From the IMG/VR virus record IMGVR_UViG_3300005337_000047, positions 1-24,215 of that record: DNA of 24,215 nucleotides. One strand, 5' to 3'. A program made the position numbers and the translations under genes. Numbering within the stretch: position 1 is the stretch's first letter; every line of letters begins with the position of its first letter. The DNA is from a virus. This document shows, one piece after another, positions 8,507-23,587 of this stretch. The notes beneath the pieces are model-generated. The model saw only the letters and a program-made list of their open reading frames with translations. It was not told the origin of the DNA and ran no database searches.

Positions 8507-9007
8507 ATGGCAGTAAAGCGTGGGTTTCGCGGCGACAATGTAATTTATCGCAATGCACGCGGTGAGTCTATGGCAGTTATTCTAACTGGAGGACAGGGCA
8601 CTGCTCCGGCTGCCCCGGCTGCTGTGGGGTCTGGTACTGGTGGCACCTTGCCCGCTGCTACTTATACGTACAAGGTTACGTACGTTAAGGATGGCATCGA
8701 GAGTGAACTAAGTGCCGGATCCACGCCGTATGTGGCAACTGGTTCAACTTCTAGTGTGGCGTTGACACTTACGGCGGTAGCTGGCGCTACATCGTATAAG
8801 GTATATGGTCGGACTGGTGGCTCGTTCTTGTTGATGAAGACATTAACAGCACCAACTGTGACATATACCGACACAAATGCAGATACGCCATCTGGCGCCG
8901 GACCTACCTCGAATTTCAATGCGTCATTCAACACACCATATACTGGACACGCTGCGGTTACTGGTGTTCTGCCAGGGATAACAGCTGGCACCTATCAGAA
9001 AATATAA
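8507..9007 (+). CDS. Ig-like (fibronectin-type) domain protein, 166 aa, likely virion surface
   Basis: ATG 8507 follows AAAGGAGGACAC. Residues 1-30 form a short N-terminal segment (MAVKRGFRGDNVIYRNARGE). Residues 40-135 form one Ig/fibronectin-III-like repeat with the typical strands (AATYTYKVTYVKDGIESELS, then VAGATSYKVYGRTGG, then PTVTYTDTNADTPSGAGPTS). The same domain, with the same YKVY and SGA turns, is embedded in the tail tube protein at 17847-19109. Such domains decorate phage capsids and tails and are thought to bind carbohydrate. A head decoration or head fibre protein is the likeliest role, but its place before the terminase is unusual. Confidence 0.6.
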   Translation: MAVKRGFRGDNVIYRNARGESMAVILTGGQGTAPAAPAAVGSGTGGTLPAATYTYKVTYVKDGIESELSAGSTPYVATGSTSSVALTLTAVAGATSYKVYGRTGGSFLLMKTLTAPTVTYTDTNADTPSGAGPTSNFNASFNTPYTGHAAVTGVLPGITAGTYQKI

Positions 9008-16452: not shown

Positions 16453-17160
16453 ATGCCTGATTTTCCCCGTCCTGGTATGTCGTCGATTACTTCGGCGGTT
16501 ACCGGCTCAAAATCTGGCGGGTTTGGCCTAGCAATTCCAGGTCTATATATTGATCCACGATTCAATGCTGTACGTGGAGCGTATCTAGATGCACAGCGGA
16601 TTGATAGACTTGGTATGGCATTTACTAGTTTCAAGATTCCACTCACTACTGCATTGAACCAAGTCATTGTGCCATCTATTATTCAAAACTTTCAGGAACA
16701 AGGTCGACCAAAGTGGCAGAAGCTTTCTAAAAAGACCATCTACAACCGGCAGATGGAAGGCTTCCCACGTGGTCCAATTTTGCAAAAGACAGGACGACTC
16801 AAGCGCATCGCCACCAGGAAAAACATTTGGTACATTCAAGATAATGTACTTAGAATGCGAACAACATACTTCGATCAAGCTGTTCCTTATGGTGAATTCC
16901 ACCAGTTTGGCGCTAAAGAAGCTAGATCAAAGAAGCGACTTACTGGACTACGCAATACTTTGACTTTAGGTCCAGGTTCTAAATCTGAACAATTAGCTTC
17001 TGGACTACAACAAGTATTCGCGGCTGGTGGATATGTGCTTCCGGCTCGTCCTTACATTCAATTAACTGAATCTGAAGAAATAGAAATTTACAACATCTTC
17101 GTAGCCTATATGGTTGCCATGGTTGACAAATATTGGGGATCTGGAAGTGATGGGCTATGA
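16453..17160 (+). CDS. Virion morphogenesis protein, Mu gpG-like / HK97 gp10-like
   Basis: A 235-aa protein beginning one base after the previous stop. The segment IIQNFQEQGRPKWQKLSKKTIYNRQMEGFPRGPILQKTGRLKRIATRKNIWYIQD, then PYGEFHQFGAKE and VLPARPYIQLTESE, is characteristic of the phage virion morphogenesis family (Mu gpG) and of neck or tail completion proteins. It probably connects head and tail. The stop overlaps the next start by four bases. Confidence 0.78.
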   Translation: MPDFPRPGMSSITSAVTGSKSGGFGLAIPGLYIDPRFNAVRGAYLDAQRIDRLGMAFTSFKIPLTTALNQVIVPSIIQNFQEQGRPKWQKLSKKTIYNRQMEGFPRGPILQKTGRLKRIATRKNIWYIQDNVLRMRTTYFDQAVPYGEFHQFGAKEARSKKRLTGLRNTLTLGPGSKSEQLASGLQQVFAAGGYVLPARPYIQLTESEEIEIYNIFVAYMVAMVDKYWGSGSDGL

Positions 17161-17630
17161 CCGGACCAGGACCACACACTGATGCTGATGAGGTACTGGC
17201 TCAGGCATTAGCTGACATCATTGAATTAAATAAAGCAGACCTACAACTTGATGACGTGCTTTATGGAAATCACAACATGATTCCACATGCTAGTGCAGCG
17301 ATTGTAATGCCGATGGGAAAGGTTCGTACTCTAGCTGGTGGATCAGCACCAGGTGGCCGTACGCAGAATGACCTGAGAGTTACGATCTCACTGCTGTGGA
17401 GCAAGGTTGGTGATGAAACTACAGAACGTAAAGCCTGTGATGCTAGAGCTACAGCATTAGAAGCCATTCTACATCAAGATACTACTGTTGGCGGATTGAT
17501 TATTCACGGCTTTGTCAATCAGGTTGAACGTGGCGAATCGCCACTAGCTGGTGGCATAGGTAATAATGGAATGTTCCGCAGTGTTATCATGATGTATAGC
17601 GGCGTAACTAAGACCTATTTGTCTCCGTAG
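17157..17630 (+). CDS. Putative tail terminator protein, 157 aa
   Basis: ATG 17157 overlaps the previous stop (ATGA). The sequence (DEVLAQALADIIELNKADLQLDDVLYGNHNMIP, VRVTISLLWSKVGDETTERKACDARATALEAILHQDTTVGGLIIHGFVNQVERG) has the helix and strand order of tail terminators, which cap the tail tube and join it to the neck. The call rests on order (after gpG-like, before tail tube) and size; similarity is weak by eye. Confidence 0.6.
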   Translation: MTGPGPHTDADEVLAQALADIIELNKADLQLDDVLYGNHNMIPHASAAIVMPMGKVRTLAGGSAPGGRTQNDLRVTISLLWSKVGDETTERKACDARATALEAILHQDTTVGGLIIHGFVNQVERGESPLAGGIGNNGMFRSVIMMYSGVTKTYLSP

Positions 17631-17649
17631 GCGCACCATAGGGGTACTA

Positions 17650-17847
17650 ATGATGCATTTTGAGTTAGAATCCGATCGCGAAGTAACGGTTGATGCTATC
17701 GGATTATTGCCCGCCGGTGAACCTGTGGTGGTCTCGGAAGAAGCACAAACCCTTTTTGAGGCACTGCATGGTACCACCTTAGCAGAAGCTAATTTCCCAG
17801 CATTTGTTAAAGTCACTGCTGTAGTTGATACGGATGGAGGTGTCTAA
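17650..17847 (+). CDS. Small hypothetical tail-region protein, 65 aa
   Basis: ATG 17650 follows TAGGGGTACTA; the next codon is also ATG, so the exact start is open. MMHFELESDREVTVDAIGLL continues PAGEPVVVSEEAQTLFEALHGTTLAEANFPAFVKVTAVVDTDGGV, similar in style to the small proteins found after capsid genes (compare 15709-15984). Its stop overlaps the tube gene start (TAATG). Function unknown. Confidence 0.6.
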   Translation: MMHFELESDREVTVDAIGLLPAGEPVVVSEEAQTLFEALHGTTLAEANFPAFVKVTAVVDTDGGV

Positions 17848-19109
17848 TGGCTATTGGTATTGGTGCATCCGGTATAGTTGGAATTGCCTTTGAGCAATTG
17901 TCACCTCCGGTTCTGTCTGGTGCTCCACAAGCTGGTGGTGCGCTGACTGCTGGTACTTATAAGTACTACATAACAGCGCTCAACGCTAATGGTGAAACTA
18001 CAGTTTCTAACGAAGTTACTGTTACTACGGCTGCCGGCAACCTAACAGCACACTTGTCGTGGCCAGCGGTAACTGGTGCCACAGGATACAAGGTTTACCG
18101 TACTGCTTCTGGTGGCGGCACTGGTACTGAGTTGTTAATAGCAACTTTGGGCTTAGTTGTCGTTTACGATGACACAGCAGTGGGCGCACCATCTGGTGCT
18201 TTCCCGACTGCGAATACCGCCACAACACCCGGTGTCTACGCTGCTCCTATTAAGTATTTCCCATTCAATAGTGAATCTATTACCTCTACCAACCAAACAG
18301 TATTCCGTCGGCCAATCCGACAGTCCGCCGATATCATTGGTGCCGTTGCTGGCAACTACATGATTGGTGGAGAACTTAACATAGAAGCTATTGAGGACGT
18401 GGTTCCTTACTTCCTCATGGGCAGCCGTATTTCTGTAGTGAAATCAGGATCTACACCTAACTTTACATACACATTCACACCAACACCAGCAGCCGTTGCC
18501 GCTAAAACTTACTCGTTAACAGTAGTTCGTAATGGCATAGTATTCGGCTATGTTGGAGTTTGTACTTCAAGCTTCGGTTTCGGCGTTGATAATGGTCTTA
18601 TGACGTTCAAGACTTCGGTCATGGGACGTGATGAGGCCGTACAGAGCCTGCCTACACCAACATATCCAACTACAGTGCCCTTCGGCGCCGGTCAATATTC
18701 AATTGAAATTCCAACAGGTTCAGCAGTGCTAGACACTGACACCTTTGAATTCTCAGTTGAAGATGCAGCAGAGGCACAGTTCCGTCTTAAGAGCACAGGT
18801 CGTGGTGCACAGTTCATCAAGTATGGTGAGCGTGCATCTACTATGACATTTGAGCGTGACTTCCAGGACCGTACTGACTTCGATGCATTCAAAGCAACAA
18901 CTTCACAATCTGTTACCATTACCGCCAGCAAGGGCGTCAACAACTCCATTTCAATTCTTGCCCCTGTGGCTATCAAGGATACGTACGAGGTTGGACTATC
19001 CAGCGAAGGTGACTTGGTTCGCGCTTCTATCGCTTACCAGAACATCATCGATGGCACAGGTAAGTCTTGGCAGATTGTGATTAAGACTCAGGAAGACATT
19101 ACCCTGTAA
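17847..19109 (+). CDS. Major tail tube protein with inserted Ig-like domain
   Basis: A 420-aa protein. Residues 1-20 form the N-terminal arm; residues 22-125 form an Ig/fibronectin-like domain (GTYKYYITALNANGETTVSNE, ATGYKVYRTASGGGTG, VYDDTAVGAPSGA) like that of the 166-aa protein at 8507-9007. The remainder is the tube domain (PIKYFPFNSESITSTNQTVFRRPIRQSADIIGAVAGNYMIGGELNIEA), ending with a long beta-rich part. The tube is a stack of rings through which DNA is ejected. An Ig domain near the N terminus instead of the more common C-terminal position is notable. Confidence 0.8.
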   Translation: MAIGIGASGIVGIAFEQLSPPVLSGAPQAGGALTAGTYKYYITALNANGETTVSNEVTVTTAAGNLTAHLSWPAVTGATGYKVYRTASGGGTGTELLIATLGLVVVYDDTAVGAPSGAFPTANTATTPGVYAAPIKYFPFNSESITSTNQTVFRRPIRQSADIIGAVAGNYMIGGELNIEAIEDVVPYFLMGSRISVVKSGSTPNFTYTFTPTPAAVAAKTYSLTVVRNGIVFGYVGVCTSSFGFGVDNGLMTFKTSVMGRDEAVQSLPTPTYPTTVPFGAGQYSIEIPTGSAVLDTDTFEFSVEDAAEAQFRLKSTGRGAQFIKYGERASTMTFERDFQDRTDFDAFKATTSQSVTITASKGVNNSISILAPVAIKDTYEVGLSSEGDLVRASIAYQNIIDGTGKSWQIVIKTQEDITL

Positions 19110-19120
19110 ATGGGGAATCA

Positions 19121-19618
19121 ATGGATTTAGCTTATTGGTTGATAGTTTACTATATTATTCCAATTGCTGAATTAATCTTTATTCCACTATACGCAGGTCG
19201 TATGGTGTATAAATGGTTAGTAAAGAGGAGATCCACAGCCATGCCAGTAGGTACCATTACCAACACAACATCTGACAAATTAGCGCTCAACACTGCGCCG
19301 CCAGATGGATACGTTATTGTGCGTAGAATGACTTATGGTGAGGAAATGCACCGGTCATCACTAGCAGCCAGATTCCTTATGGGTGGCACATCAAGCAAAG
19401 ACTTCACAGGTGAGCTAGACATTCAGTCGGAGAAAGTGACCCTGTGGGACTTTGCTAATTTAGTAGTTGAGCACAACATTACTGATGCCTCTGGCAGAGT
19501 GCTTAACTTCAAAAATGAGCAGGATGTACGGTCATTGGATGTACGCGTCGGCAAGGAAATCGGTCAGTATATTGATGACTTCAACGCTACAGAGAATACT
19601 GACGAAGTAAAAAACTAA
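19121..19618 (+). CDS. Tail assembly chaperone (gpG-like), with N-terminal membrane-type segment
   Basis: The frame from ATG 19121 (TGGGGAATCA ahead) encodes 165 aa. The first 40 residues contain a hydrophobic helix (LAYWLIVYYIIPIAELIFIPLYAG) and a basic end (KRRSTA), unlike normal chaperones. A second start, ATG 19241 (codon 41, MPVGTITNTTSDKLALNTAP), has AGAGGAG about 12 bases ahead and would give a normal soluble chaperone of 125 aa. The chaperone part (YGEEMHRSSLAARFLMG, LWDFANLVVEHNITDASGRVLNF) has the usual look. The frame ends just after a slippery site (19609-19615). Confidence 0.72.
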   Translation: MDLAYWLIVYYIIPIAELIFIPLYAGRMVYKWLVKRRSTAMPVGTITNTTSDKLALNTAPPDGYVIVRRMTYGEEMHRSSLAARFLMGGTSSKDFTGELDIQSEKVTLWDFANLVVEHNITDASGRVLNFKNEQDVRSLDVRVGKEIGQYIDDFNATENTDEVKN

Positions 19619-19866
19619 TTAGCGAGCTACGTAAGGCAGTTCTTATTCCGAATGCCAACAAAGTAGCTCCAGATGCCTTAGGTATTCTAAACATTATTCG
19701 AACTTGTCAAAACTATAACACGTTACCAAGAGCTGGTGGTTTATTAGATCAAGATGCGCTAATGGTGCATTTAATGTTCTATGTGACGCAATGGGATACA
19801 CAACGGCGTGAACTCGATGAGGCTAAGGCTCGACGTGAAGCTGAACGCCAGCGACAGCATGGGTGA
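19121..19866 (+). CDS. Tail assembly chaperone, -1 frameshift product (gpGT-like)
   Basis: Ribosomes that slip back one base at AAAAAAC (19609-19615) continue in frame CTA ATT AGC and so on, for 83 more codons to the TGA at 19864-19866. The added part (LISELRKAVLIPNANKVAPD, LGILNIIRTCQNYNTLPRAGGLL, then a Glu/Arg-rich end QRRELDEAKARREAERQRQ) has no start codon with a binding site of its own. Such gpG-gpGT pairs chaperone the tape measure protein in lambda-like tails. The end overlaps the spacer before the tape measure gene. Confidence 0.8.
19609..19615 (+). other. Slippery heptamer AAAAAAC for -1 frameshift
   Basis: In the zero frame (GTA AAA AAC TAA) the heptamer is A AAA AAC, a perfect X-XXY-YYZ. 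The zero-frame stop follows at once, giving a strong stop-coupled context. Confidence 0.85.
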
Positions 19867-19877
19867 GAGGAGTCGAA

Positions 19878-22730
19878 GTGCCCTTTAGTGCAACTAGAGA
19901 CCTTTGGCTTGTGCTGAAAGCTCGCGATGAAGCTACTAGCGCAATGCGTGCATTCTCACGTGACATTCGGCAAGTTGGTGACAGCGTTGCTGAAGCAAAT
20001 CTACGAGCAGCCAGATCAGCAATTCAGAATGAAGTAGCAGCACGACGACTTTCCGCAGCATATCAGATTGGTATTCTGCGTAAAGGCGAACAGACTGACG
20101 CTACTAAAGCTGAAATTTCAGCACTACAAAATGAAACTAGAGCATTTGCACTAGGCGCACAACAGCGTATTGGAGTTATTGATCAAGAGATTGCTTCCAT
20201 GCGTGTTCAACGTTCACAAATGGAAGAGAATCGAGTATCTAGTCAAAAGCTAAGTTCTGCTTTTGCTGGATTGTCAGCAGCTACCGCCGCTATGGGTACA
20301 GTTATGGTGGCTAGCGCGGCATTCGGTGTTGCCGGACTTTATAGTCTAGTCAAGGCACAATCTGAATATGAGAAAGCTTCAGCGCTAACTCGTACTCAGG
20401 TTGACAAGTTTGCAACCTCTCTTGAAGATATAGAGAAGATTGGTCTAAGAGTAGCTGATTCTATCGGTGTGCCATTCGAACAGATTCAGCCAGCTTTGTA
20501 TAACATTTTCTCATCAATGGAAATTGGTGCTAAACAAGCTGAGCAAGTCTTAGGCATTTTTGCTAAGGCAGCTGTAGCTGGACAAACAAGTATTGAAAAT
20601 GCATCAGTTGCAACCATTGGTATTTTGAACGCATTCCAATTGCCTCTAACTTCCATCAATCACCTAATGGACGTGCAGTTCCAACTGGTGAAGGAAGGTA
20701 TTGGTAGCTACGACGAGTGGTCACAGCGTATTGGTTTGGTCACTCCATCAGCAGTGCGGTTTGGGCAGACGGTTGATATGATGACCGCTGCACTGGCAGC
20801 ATCCACTCGTATGGGTATTTCCGCTGCTAGATCAGCAACGGCAGTATCTAGGGCTATGGATGCAATGTCTAACCCAGCGGCAGTCAAAGCCCTTAAGGGC
20901 CTCGGTATTGCATCATATGACGCAAGCGGCCACTTCCGTCCTATGATCGATATTCTGATGGACTTCCGTACTCAGCTAGAAAAGATGCCAAATCAGGATA
21001 GAGTCAAAGCAATTCTAGACGTGTTCAAGGGTGCTGGTGGAACTATTGAAGCCCGCCGGTTCCTACAGAACATGCTTCTAACACCAGGAAACTTGGAATT
21101 ATTCCAAAACATTCTTGGTAGCATGAAGCAATCGGCTGGCTCATTCGAGCAAGCCTATGCAATTATGGCAGATACTACTGCGATTAAAACAGAACTACTT
21201 GCAAACAAATGGCAAGAAGTTAAAATTGCCGCAGGTAAAGCACTTGTTCCCGCTTTCACAGCTGTTGTAAGTTGGTTCATTAAACTGTTTGATTGGTTCA
21301 ACAAACTACCACCATCAACCCAACAACTTATTGTTAAGATTATTGCCATCACAGTAGCTGTCACTGGTCTCATCGGTGTACTGCTACTTATCACCAGCGT
21401 TATTCTTGGCTTCGCGGCCGCTATTACTGTTGCATCCACGCCAGTATTGCTATTCGTTGGAATTGCAGCATTGGTTGTAGGTGCGATTATAGCTATCGGT
21501 GTCGCCTTTACCATTCTTATGATTAAGAACAAAGGCTTCCGCGACTGGATCATCAATGCTGGTAAGAACATTAAAAACTTTGCTTTGATGATTGCACACG
21601 GATTCATGGCAGCAGTTAACGCTGTTATCGACTTTGGCAAAATGATTATTCAAGCAGTCGTTACGGCCTGGAACGCTGTAGTAAATGCAACCGTAACGGC
21701 TTGGAACGCTGTTGTCTCATTTGTACAAACTGTCGTTGGTGCTATTGTTGGATTTGTTCAAGGTCTAATCAATGGCATGATCAGCGTATTCCAGGCTGGT
21801 ATTAACTTCATTGTAGGAATTTGGAATTACTTCTGGAACACTAGCATTGGTGGATTGATCATCAGTGCTGGTAAATTCCTACTAGCAGTTGCAGAACTCA
21901 CATTATACGGTTTGCTATTCATCTTTGAATATATCATAAAAGGCATTCAAATCGCCTGGGATTTCCTGTGGGATCATGTTATCAAGTACGTGGTTGATGC
22001 TTGGAACATTGTCGTAGCTTATCTATCAGGTGTTTGGGAAACAGTTAAGGGAGCAGCGCTAGCTGCATGGAACCTTGTCTATGGCTACATTAGTGATAAG
22101 GTAAATTCAGCAAAAACTGCTGTCATGACTGCATTCAATATAGTTAAAAGCTTCCTAGATACTATTTGGACTAATATTAAGACAGCGGTCGCTGCTGCTT
22201 GGGAGACAGTTAAATCTACTGTTGGTGAAAAGGTAGACGCAGTTGTCAACAAAGCTAAGGAAGTTAAAGATAAGATAGTTAACTTCTTTGCTAACGCTGG
22301 CACCTGGTTGTTTGAAGCCGGAAAGCATATCATTCAAGGTCTGATCGACGGTATTGGTTCCATGTTCGATGCACTAGGTAACAAGATCAGTGATGCAGCT
22401 AACTGGATTAAGAGTCACCTACCGTTCTCCCCAGCAAAACGTGGTCCACTATCTGGACGAGGAAATCCATACTACTCTGGTCAATCTATTGTTAAGTTGA
22501 TCGCGGCTGGTATTTACAGTCAGCAAGATGCGTTGACTATGGCACTAAATGCCTTTACTGGCAATATCACAAATATGACTGGCGGATTAGCTATTGGCAA
22601 CGCTGCTGGTGGCACTGGTACAACCGGTACACATAACCAGTACAATCAGAGTATTGTCATTAATACAAATGAAATTGATCCACGGCGTCATGCCATGGAG
22701 CTTGGAGCGCTTTTGGCTGGAGTGTCATAA
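19878..22730 (+). CDS. Tape measure protein, about 950 aa
   Basis: I choose GTG 19878 (MPFSATRDLWLVLKARDEAT), preceded by GAGAGGAGTCGAA, over GTG 19863, which has no site. Domains: N-terminal coiled coil (residues 20-125); a hydrophobic segment (128-158); a TP901/PhageMin_Tail domain (about 160-400, with GVPFEQIQPALYNIFSSM and LVTPSAVRFGQTVDMMTAALAAS); a multi-span hydrophobic block (483-548); then Trp-bearing repeats (TAWNAVVNATV, 11 residues per copy near 596-617) and the conserved end SHLPFSPAKRGPLSGRGNPYYSGQSIV. The protein sets tail length; about 950 residues imply a tail of roughly 140 nm by the usual 0.15 nm per residue. The stop overlaps the next start. Confidence 0.93.
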   Translation: MPFSATRDLWLVLKARDEATSAMRAFSRDIRQVGDSVAEANLRAARSAIQNEVAARRLSAAYQIGILRKGEQTDATKAEISALQNETRAFALGAQQRIGVIDQEIASMRVQRSQMEENRVSSQKLSSAFAGLSAATAAMGTVMVASAAFGVAGLYSLVKAQSEYEKASALTRTQVDKFATSLEDIEKIGLRVADSIGVPFEQIQPALYNIFSSMEIGAKQAEQVLGIFAKAAVAGQTSIENASVATIGILNAFQLPLTSINHLMDVQFQLVKEGIGSYDEWSQRIGLVTPSAVRFGQTVDMMTAALAASTRMGISAARSATAVSRAMDAMSNPAAVKALKGLGIASYDASGHFRPMIDILMDFRTQLEKMPNQDRVKAILDVFKGAGGTIEARRFLQNMLLTPGNLELFQNILGSMKQSAGSFEQAYAIMADTTAIKTELLANKWQEVKIAAGKALVPAFTAVVSWFIKLFDWFNKLPPSTQQLIVKIIAITVAVTGLIGVLLLITSVILGFAAAITVASTPVLLFVGIAALVVGAIIAIGVAFTILMIKNKGFRDWIINAGKNIKNFALMIAHGFMAAVNAVIDFGKMIIQAVVTAWNAVVNATVTAWNAVVSFVQTVVGAIVGFVQGLINGMISVFQAGINFIVGIWNYFWNTSIGGLIISAGKFLLAVAELTLYGLLFIFEYIIKGIQIAWDFLWDHVIKYVVDAWNIVVAYLSGVWETVKGAALAAWNLVYGYISDKVNSAKTAVMTAFNIVKSFLDTIWTNIKTAVAAAWETVKSTVGEKVDAVVNKAKEVKDKIVNFFANAGTWLFEAGKHIIQGLIDGIGSMFDALGNKISDAANWIKSHLPFSPAKRGPLSGRGNPYYSGQSIVKLIAAGIYSQQDALTMALNAFTGNITNMTGGLAIGNAAGGTGTTGTHNQYNQSIVINTNEIDPRRHAMELGALLAGVS
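21663..21712 (+). repeat. 33-bp period repeat in tape measure gene
   Basis: ACGGCCTGGAACGCTGT (21663-21679) recurs as ACGGCTTGGAACGCTGT (21696-21712), coding for two 11-residue units AWNAVV. Such Trp/Phe-bearing 11-residue repeats are known in tape measure proteins. Confidence 0.6.
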
Positions 22731-23587
22731 TGACTATTGGTCTTAATGATTATGAATTCCAGTTGGATACTACTGGCGTGCGATTGAACACTGACAGTAC
22801 CGGAATACCATTTGTGGATATCAACAAAGTTTCTGGATTGGACAACAGTCCATACCGAGAAACTTTTCGTGATCATGAAGGTACTGATGGTGGATTCCTA
22901 GATGCAGAATTTGAAACAGGTAGAGCAATAGTTTTAGATGGTATTGTTTATGGAGATACTTTAAATATTGAAAGTTATCTGGATACACTAAAACAAAATT
23001 ATGCACCAGTACGAAACCCTATTCCATTTTACTTTAAATCTAGTGGTGTCTCTGAACGCTTCGTTAATGTAAAACCAAGAGGCGTGAGATTCGATTGGGA
23101 ACAAGCTCGAAGAATTGGCATCACAAATATTCAGTTTCAGATGTATGCTGAAGATCCAAGAATATATGACAACGATCTATTAAGTATTGCCGTCCCATAT
23201 GGTGGTCCAGCCACCACAGGGTTTGGCTTCAACTTCGGATTCAACTTAAGCTTTGGCGCGACAGTACCAGCTTCTGGTGGTATTGTGGTAGTTAGTGGCA
23301 ATCGACCAACTCCAGCTATTATTACCGTTACTGGTCCTGCGACATTGCCATCAATAGTTAACTCCACAGATGGATTAACACTAACTTTCAATTTAACCCT
23401 ATCAGCTTCTGATGTACTAGTTATTGATCTAGCGACTAGAAATGTAACTGTTAATGGCGCGAATGCTCGATTTAGTTTGATAGAACCTAACTGGTGGCTA
23501 TTCAATCCAGGTAGCACCTTTGTGATTTTTGGTGGGCAGTCTGGCAGTGGCACCATGGTTATTAGTTACAGAAATGCTTGGAGGTAA
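22730..23587 (+). CDS. Distal tail (Dit-like) protein, 285 aa
   Basis: ATG 22730 overlaps the tape measure stop (TAATG). The N-terminal half (YEFQLDTTGVRLNTDSTGIPFVDINKVSGLDNSPYRETFRDHEGTDGGFLDAEFETGRAIVLDGIVYG, then FDWEQARRIGITNIQFQMYAEDPRIYDND) has the belt-domain pattern of Dit-like proteins. The C-terminal half (FNFGFNLSFGATVPASGG to MVISYRNAWR) has the galectin-like strand-rich pattern. The protein forms the hexameric ring joining the tail tube to the tip. Gene order agrees. Confidence 0.8.
   Translation: MTIGLNDYEFQLDTTGVRLNTDSTGIPFVDINKVSGLDNSPYRETFRDHEGTDGGFLDAEFETGRAIVLDGIVYGDTLNIESYLDTLKQNYAPVRNPIPFYFKSSGVSERFVNVKPRGVRFDWEQARRIGITNIQFQMYAEDPRIYDNDLLSIAVPYGGPATTGFGFNFGFNLSFGATVPASGGIVVVSGNRPTPAIITVTGPATLPSIVNSTDGLTLTFNLTLSASDVLVIDLATRNVTVNGANARFSLIEPNWWLFNPGSTFVIFGGQSGSGTMVISYRNAWR

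Follow-up and report, generated by a model that had tools for sequence, protein, structure and literature searches.

Two overlapping frames at positions 19241-19618 and 19615-19866 are very probably (about 95%) the two parts of a phage tail assembly chaperone produced by frameshifting, as judged from sequence comparison and structure models. They were found in a 24,215-base virus record, here called the window, which carries a tailed-phage structural block. Profile searches of the window recognised terminase, portal, capsid, tail tube, tape measure, and distal tail genes. A programmed -1 frameshift extending the tail chaperone had been proposed in a first-pass annotation, and it is supported by the slippery heptamer, the gene position, the open and conserved -1 frame, a downstream hairpin, and recurrence in relatives. 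The positions of the features are given in Table 1.

Table 1. Features at and around the tail chaperone locus, in window coordinates.
Feature	Position	Strand	Evidence and remarks
Major tail (tube) protein gene	17847..19109	+	Pfam Phage_tube_2, E 1.1e-15
In-frame hydrophobic leader, 40 codons	19121..19240	+	No stop before chaperone start; helix 2-37 in long-form model
Tail assembly chaperone, zero frame (gpG-like), 125 aa	19241..19618	+	SD GAGGAG 19225-19230; stop TAA 19616-19618
Slippery heptamer A_AAA_AAC	19609..19615	+	Sequence; relatives with AAAAAAC or GGGAAAC at same position
Zero-frame stop TAA	19616..19618	+	Directly 3' of heptamer; abuts in 23 of 53 near-heptamer loci
-1 frame extension (gpT-like), 83 codons	19615..19866	+	Homologues; dN/dS < 1; stop TGA 19864-19866
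mRNA hairpin, likely stimulator	19624..19669	+	Outer stem 19624-19630 with 19663-19669
Tape measure protein gene	19878..22730	+	phrog_58 E 5e-68; PhageMin_Tail E 3.7e-23; SD GAGAGGAG 19865-19872

The chaperone locus sits between the genes for the major tail protein and the tape measure protein, which is the gene order of lambda G/GT-type chaperones. The best placement of the tape measure start is the GTG 11 nt past the -1 stop, where it is preceded by GAGAGGAG, whereas the program-made list of open reading frames puts this start at GTG 19863 instead. The first-pass annotation had likewise noted no unexplained gap ahead of the tape measure gene. A whole public contig of 5924 bases (L002), possibly from the same sample, is identical to window positions 17148-23071. 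Inspection by eye revealed similar Ig/fibronectin-like stretches in the open reading frame at 8507 (8507-9007) and at the N-terminus of the tube protein (17847-18250), with the sequences AATYTYKVTYVKDGIESELSAG and AGTYKYYITALNANGETTVSNE; the copy in the tube protein matches major tail proteins of Arthrobacter phages. In the relatives L010, L012, L013, L014, L016, and L017, an inverted repeat resembling a terminator, around GGCCGTGTGGAGTT and CACGGCC, was seen by eye to recur between the tail tube and chaperone genes, just 5' of the leader or the chaperone. It may lower transcription past the tube gene.

The perfect heptamer and the immediate zero-frame stop described in the first-pass annotation are both present. 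With the codon usage of the window, an in-phase X_XXY_YYZ heptamer is expected by chance at a given codon pair with P = 0.0050, and codon shuffling across the relatives gave 0.0043 for the last codon pair. The position of the stop speaks to some extent against frameshifting, as a stop adjoining the heptamer can reduce slippage through release-factor competition. In HIV-1 constructs, a stop placed right after the heptamer resulted in less apparent slippage that was sensitive to release factor, according to an excerpt of PMC4373837. The same excerpt names Rous sarcoma virus and barley yellow dwarf virus as having natural stops directly after the slippery sequence; they share this layout with the window, but are eukaryotic viruses and the genes are other ones. 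For annotated frameshift genes of the SEA-PHAGES program, the mean distance is given as 26 nt in an extract of PMC10885494. The spacing in the family of the window is tighter and may act as a tuning device, and this layout would provide a clean test case for release-factor competition in bacterial -1 slippage.

The relatives are more telling than these probabilities. They were collected from viral contigs with the zero-frame protein as the sole query, so the -1 frame had no part in choosing them. The set comprised 79 loci besides the window's own copy (L067) and, together with the window, represented 62 unique proteins. An in-phase heptamer was found no more than 60 nt from the stop in 53 of these 62 loci (window included), where it abutted the stop in 23 loci, lay 3 nt away in 20, and lay 21-54 nt away in 10. 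Six of the other nine loci had a heptamer at 63-72 nt together with an extension of at least 86 codons; L137 reaches the end of its contig, and the remaining two, L125 and L141, had no in-phase heptamer. Only two out-of-phase heptamers were present in the same stretch across all 62 loci. The heptamer was AAAAAAC in 29 of the 53 loci, GGGAAAC in 17, and GGGAAAA in 4, its position being constant while its type differed. A second set of 47 further unique loci was drawn mostly through the -1 protein, with some contigs also present in an earlier search for -1 homologues; in 42 of these loci an in-phase heptamer was followed by at least 55 codons of extension, with the heptamer abutting the stop in 23, compared to 4 heptamers out of phase.

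This recurrence bears on two other explanations of the split. A sequencing error or mutation that broke a single gene is hardly conceivable: a lost base would be compatible with the window taken by itself, but the same split occurs in nearly all relatives, and the contig identical over 5924 bases is also split, though it may derive from the same sample. The long form could also arise from transcriptional slippage on the run of six consecutive A, as longer poly-A runs are known to cause it (PMC3711429, in the portion available). This is very improbable, since the run is only six A long, relatives have GGGAAAC at the very same position, and both the hairpin and the phase fit ribosomal slippage.

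The -1 frame was previously claimed to be open up to the TGA, and it is indeed open from a stop at 19600 and encodes 83 residues past the slip. Its product is homologous throughout across the relatives, with a conserved LPxxGGLLDQD stretch in the alignment. The dN/dS values of this frame ranged from 0.06 to 0.52 and were below 1 in every computable pair, with many pairs saturated; the -1 product is under purifying selection. Eight of 53 homologues of the -1 product matched phrog_9001 (tail assembly chaperone), with a best E of 7.2e-5. The AlphaFold model of the -1 part (mean pLDDT 95.7) consists of three helices (2-10, 19-34, and 48-82), which agrees with the helical character anticipated in the first-pass annotation. 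No meaningful fold match was obtained for the -1 domain alone (best Z 3.8), an absence that is uninformative. Among cultured phages, the only match to the -1 part was a weak one to Rhodococcus phage ReqiDocB7 (E 0.1), in which the matched protein is annotated as a pre-tape-measure frameshift protein.

The close overlap of the two frames, as in coupled genes, would also fit separate translation of the downstream frame by reinitiation after the zero-frame stop. We regard this as most unlikely, as no ATG, GTG, or TTG occurs in the -1 frame between 19600 and 19762, and a product begun at ATG 19762 would be short of 49 of the 83 residues, including the conserved LPxxGGLLDQD motif.

Ribosomal slippage is further supported by a hairpin downstream of the heptamer, which is absent from the first-pass annotation. 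Its 7-bp stem begins 8 nt past the heptamer, and the region folds with a dG of -20.7 for 75 nt (z -2.9) and pair probabilities of 0.99-1.0. When the -1 frame was shuffled synonymously 1000 times, no shuffle folded as stably. For the 60 nt after the site in the 53 loci, the mean z was -1.34, and values below -2 were found in 20 loci; three control stretches had 3, 2, and 4 such loci out of 53. A 10-bp stem covaries in eight GGGAAAC loci; this is weakened by the control with the partners slid by +1, which scored much the same (0.279 against 0.268 for the true partners), though a smaller share of the cells was paired (50 against 75%). No stable downstream hairpin was found in L069-L073, L076, and L081 (z about 0 or above), which have AAAAAAC with the stop 3 nt away, indicating that the stimulator is not universal. 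The window itself has the canonical -1 element of heptamer, short spacer, and downstream RNA structure, the last of which does not occur in all relatives.

The long form including the leader was modelled with AlphaFold (mean pLDDT 88.0). The best PDB matches of the chaperone core were YqbN (3klu) and the HK97 tail assembly chaperone (2ob9), with a Z of 7.0 each, followed by 5ir0 (Z 6.5) and a drop to 4.7. With Foldseek, 2ob9 was the top match, although its E of 0.24 is weak, and named chaperones recurred among the fold matches in a viral structure library. The resemblance to the chaperones thus ranks above the unrelated structures but is modest. The two parts in the window had no confident Pfam or PHROG family match. 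A tblastn search of cultured phages with the zero-frame proteins of the window, L094, L131, and L132 gave no match, no relative was found among GTDB genome contigs, and a sequence search of the PDB with profile A6 returned nothing useful. The assignment to the lambda G/GT type comes from this modest fold resemblance and the phrog_9001 matches, together with the gene order.

In the proposed mechanism, most ribosomes would stop at the TAA and release a short form of 125 residues. A minority would be stalled by the hairpin while AAA and AAC are occupied by the lysine and asparagine tRNAs, shift back by one base on the heptamer, and add 83 more residues to give a long form of 208 residues. In chaperones of the lambda type, the fusion protein is produced at a fixed, low ratio and tails require it. 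By analogy with lambda, which is the source for the roles of the two forms (PMC5009743 and PMC4493119, both in part), the role of the short form would be to coat the tape measure protein, with the helical tail of the long form bringing in the tube protein. We infer that slippage occurs, and its rate and the division of labour between the two forms are to be read in the same way.

The frame has its first ATG at 19121, but the chaperone's own start is ATG 19241, a point on which the first-pass annotation was silent. This start is fixed by a conserved MPxAxx and by relatives (L078, L112, L117, and L124) in which ATG is exchanged for GTG at the codon. Shine-Dalgarno pairing at the internal start was strong, with a mean of -8.2 compared to -2.7 kcal/mol inside genes, and 31 of 39 loci beat the 5% level. 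By these marks of its own, the internal start is real as far as sequence comparison can tell.

Upstream of this start, the open frame extends beyond 19121, and the stretch immediately preceding the chaperone ATG encodes MDLAYWLIVYYIIPIAELIFIPLYAGRMVYKWLVKRRSTA. This hydrophobic leader is also found upstream of the chaperone in L006, L011-L013, L068-L081, and others, and is kept across the near clade. For a count, we took the 39 of 62 unique loci with a gap of at least 66 nt after an upstream open reading frame of at least 100 codons, and scored a leader where at least 25 codons were open and the 19-residue hydropathy peak was at least 1.3. The frame leading into the chaperone was open for at least 28 codons in 33 of the 39 loci, compared to 8 and 1 for the other two frames, and it was both open and membrane-like by the leader criterion in 28 compared to 0 and 0. 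Leader sequences diverge almost freely (dN/dS mostly from 0.3 to above 1), and the charge after the hydrophobic stretch was greater than before it in 19 of 32 leaders, equal in 7, and lower in 6. In a tree of 61 proteins, of which 31 were marked as leader-bearing (three by hand), at least 11 changes of state occur, and the leader is present in 14 of the 15 rows of the window's clade. The start of the leader is less sure than the internal start: Shine-Dalgarno pairing is modest in the window (-5.5), and no convincing leader start was seen in L071-L073 and L079-L081.

That the leader is general to the family was rejected. Only 5 of 37 gap loci in the more distant set had one by the same criterion, compared to 1 and 0 for the other two frames, and L178, L180, and L211 among these five are contigs already seen as L019, L020, and L030. 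Five annotated cultured actinobacteriophages have 4-24 open in-frame codons before the annotated chaperone start, none of them hydrophobic by eye. An open frame over the end of the tube gene in L082, L084, and L009 was not taken as a leader, as the gap there is 13-22 nt and dN/dS exceeds 1. It is also unlikely that the leader is an independent small gene, because no stop separates it from the chaperone. The leader is thus a clade trait that appears to be selected for its frame and hydrophobicity.

A membrane-tethered chaperone would be the simplest reading of the leader. It is possible, at somewhat less than even odds, that this is a two-start, two-frame gene, in which initiation at ATG 19121 would add a membrane-spanning leader, so that tethered and soluble chaperones would be made, and either could carry the frameshift extension or lack it. 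Tethering would keep the hydrophobic tape measure protein, and hence tail assembly, at the inner membrane. The leader changes fast in sequence while remaining open, in frame, and hydrophobic. Searches of the open PMC literature found no description of a tail chaperone with a membrane leader, a weak negative given that subscription journals are mostly missing from it. The leader matters more than the frameshift, as the site of tail assembly in the cell becomes a testable question if the leader is selected.

The element in the window is very probably a programmed -1 frameshift of the lambda G/GT type, for which the mechanism is already well known; the frameshift in the G/GT tail chaperone of phage lambda was reportedly described by Xu, Hendrix, and Duda in 2004. 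The window differs from lambda in its heptamer, A_AAA_AAC with an adjoining stop, in lacking any detectable family match by sequence, and in its upstream hydrophobic leader. The predicted core aligns with the HK97 chaperone and YqbN over about 100 residues at 4.1-4.2 Å, but at only 8-11% identity. The leader helix is almost without a counterpart in these structures, since the alignments begin at residue 35-38 of the model. The SPP1 tail chaperone 17.5/17.5* likewise has a putative -1 frameshift at a heptamer (UUUUUUC), and the available part of the source (PMC6316719) mentions no leader for it. The frameshift adds a family of uncultured phages, represented by two parts that lack confident Pfam or PHROG matches, to a well understood mechanism, and the gene would represent a departure from the ordinary G/GT-type chaperone if the leader-bearing form is made.
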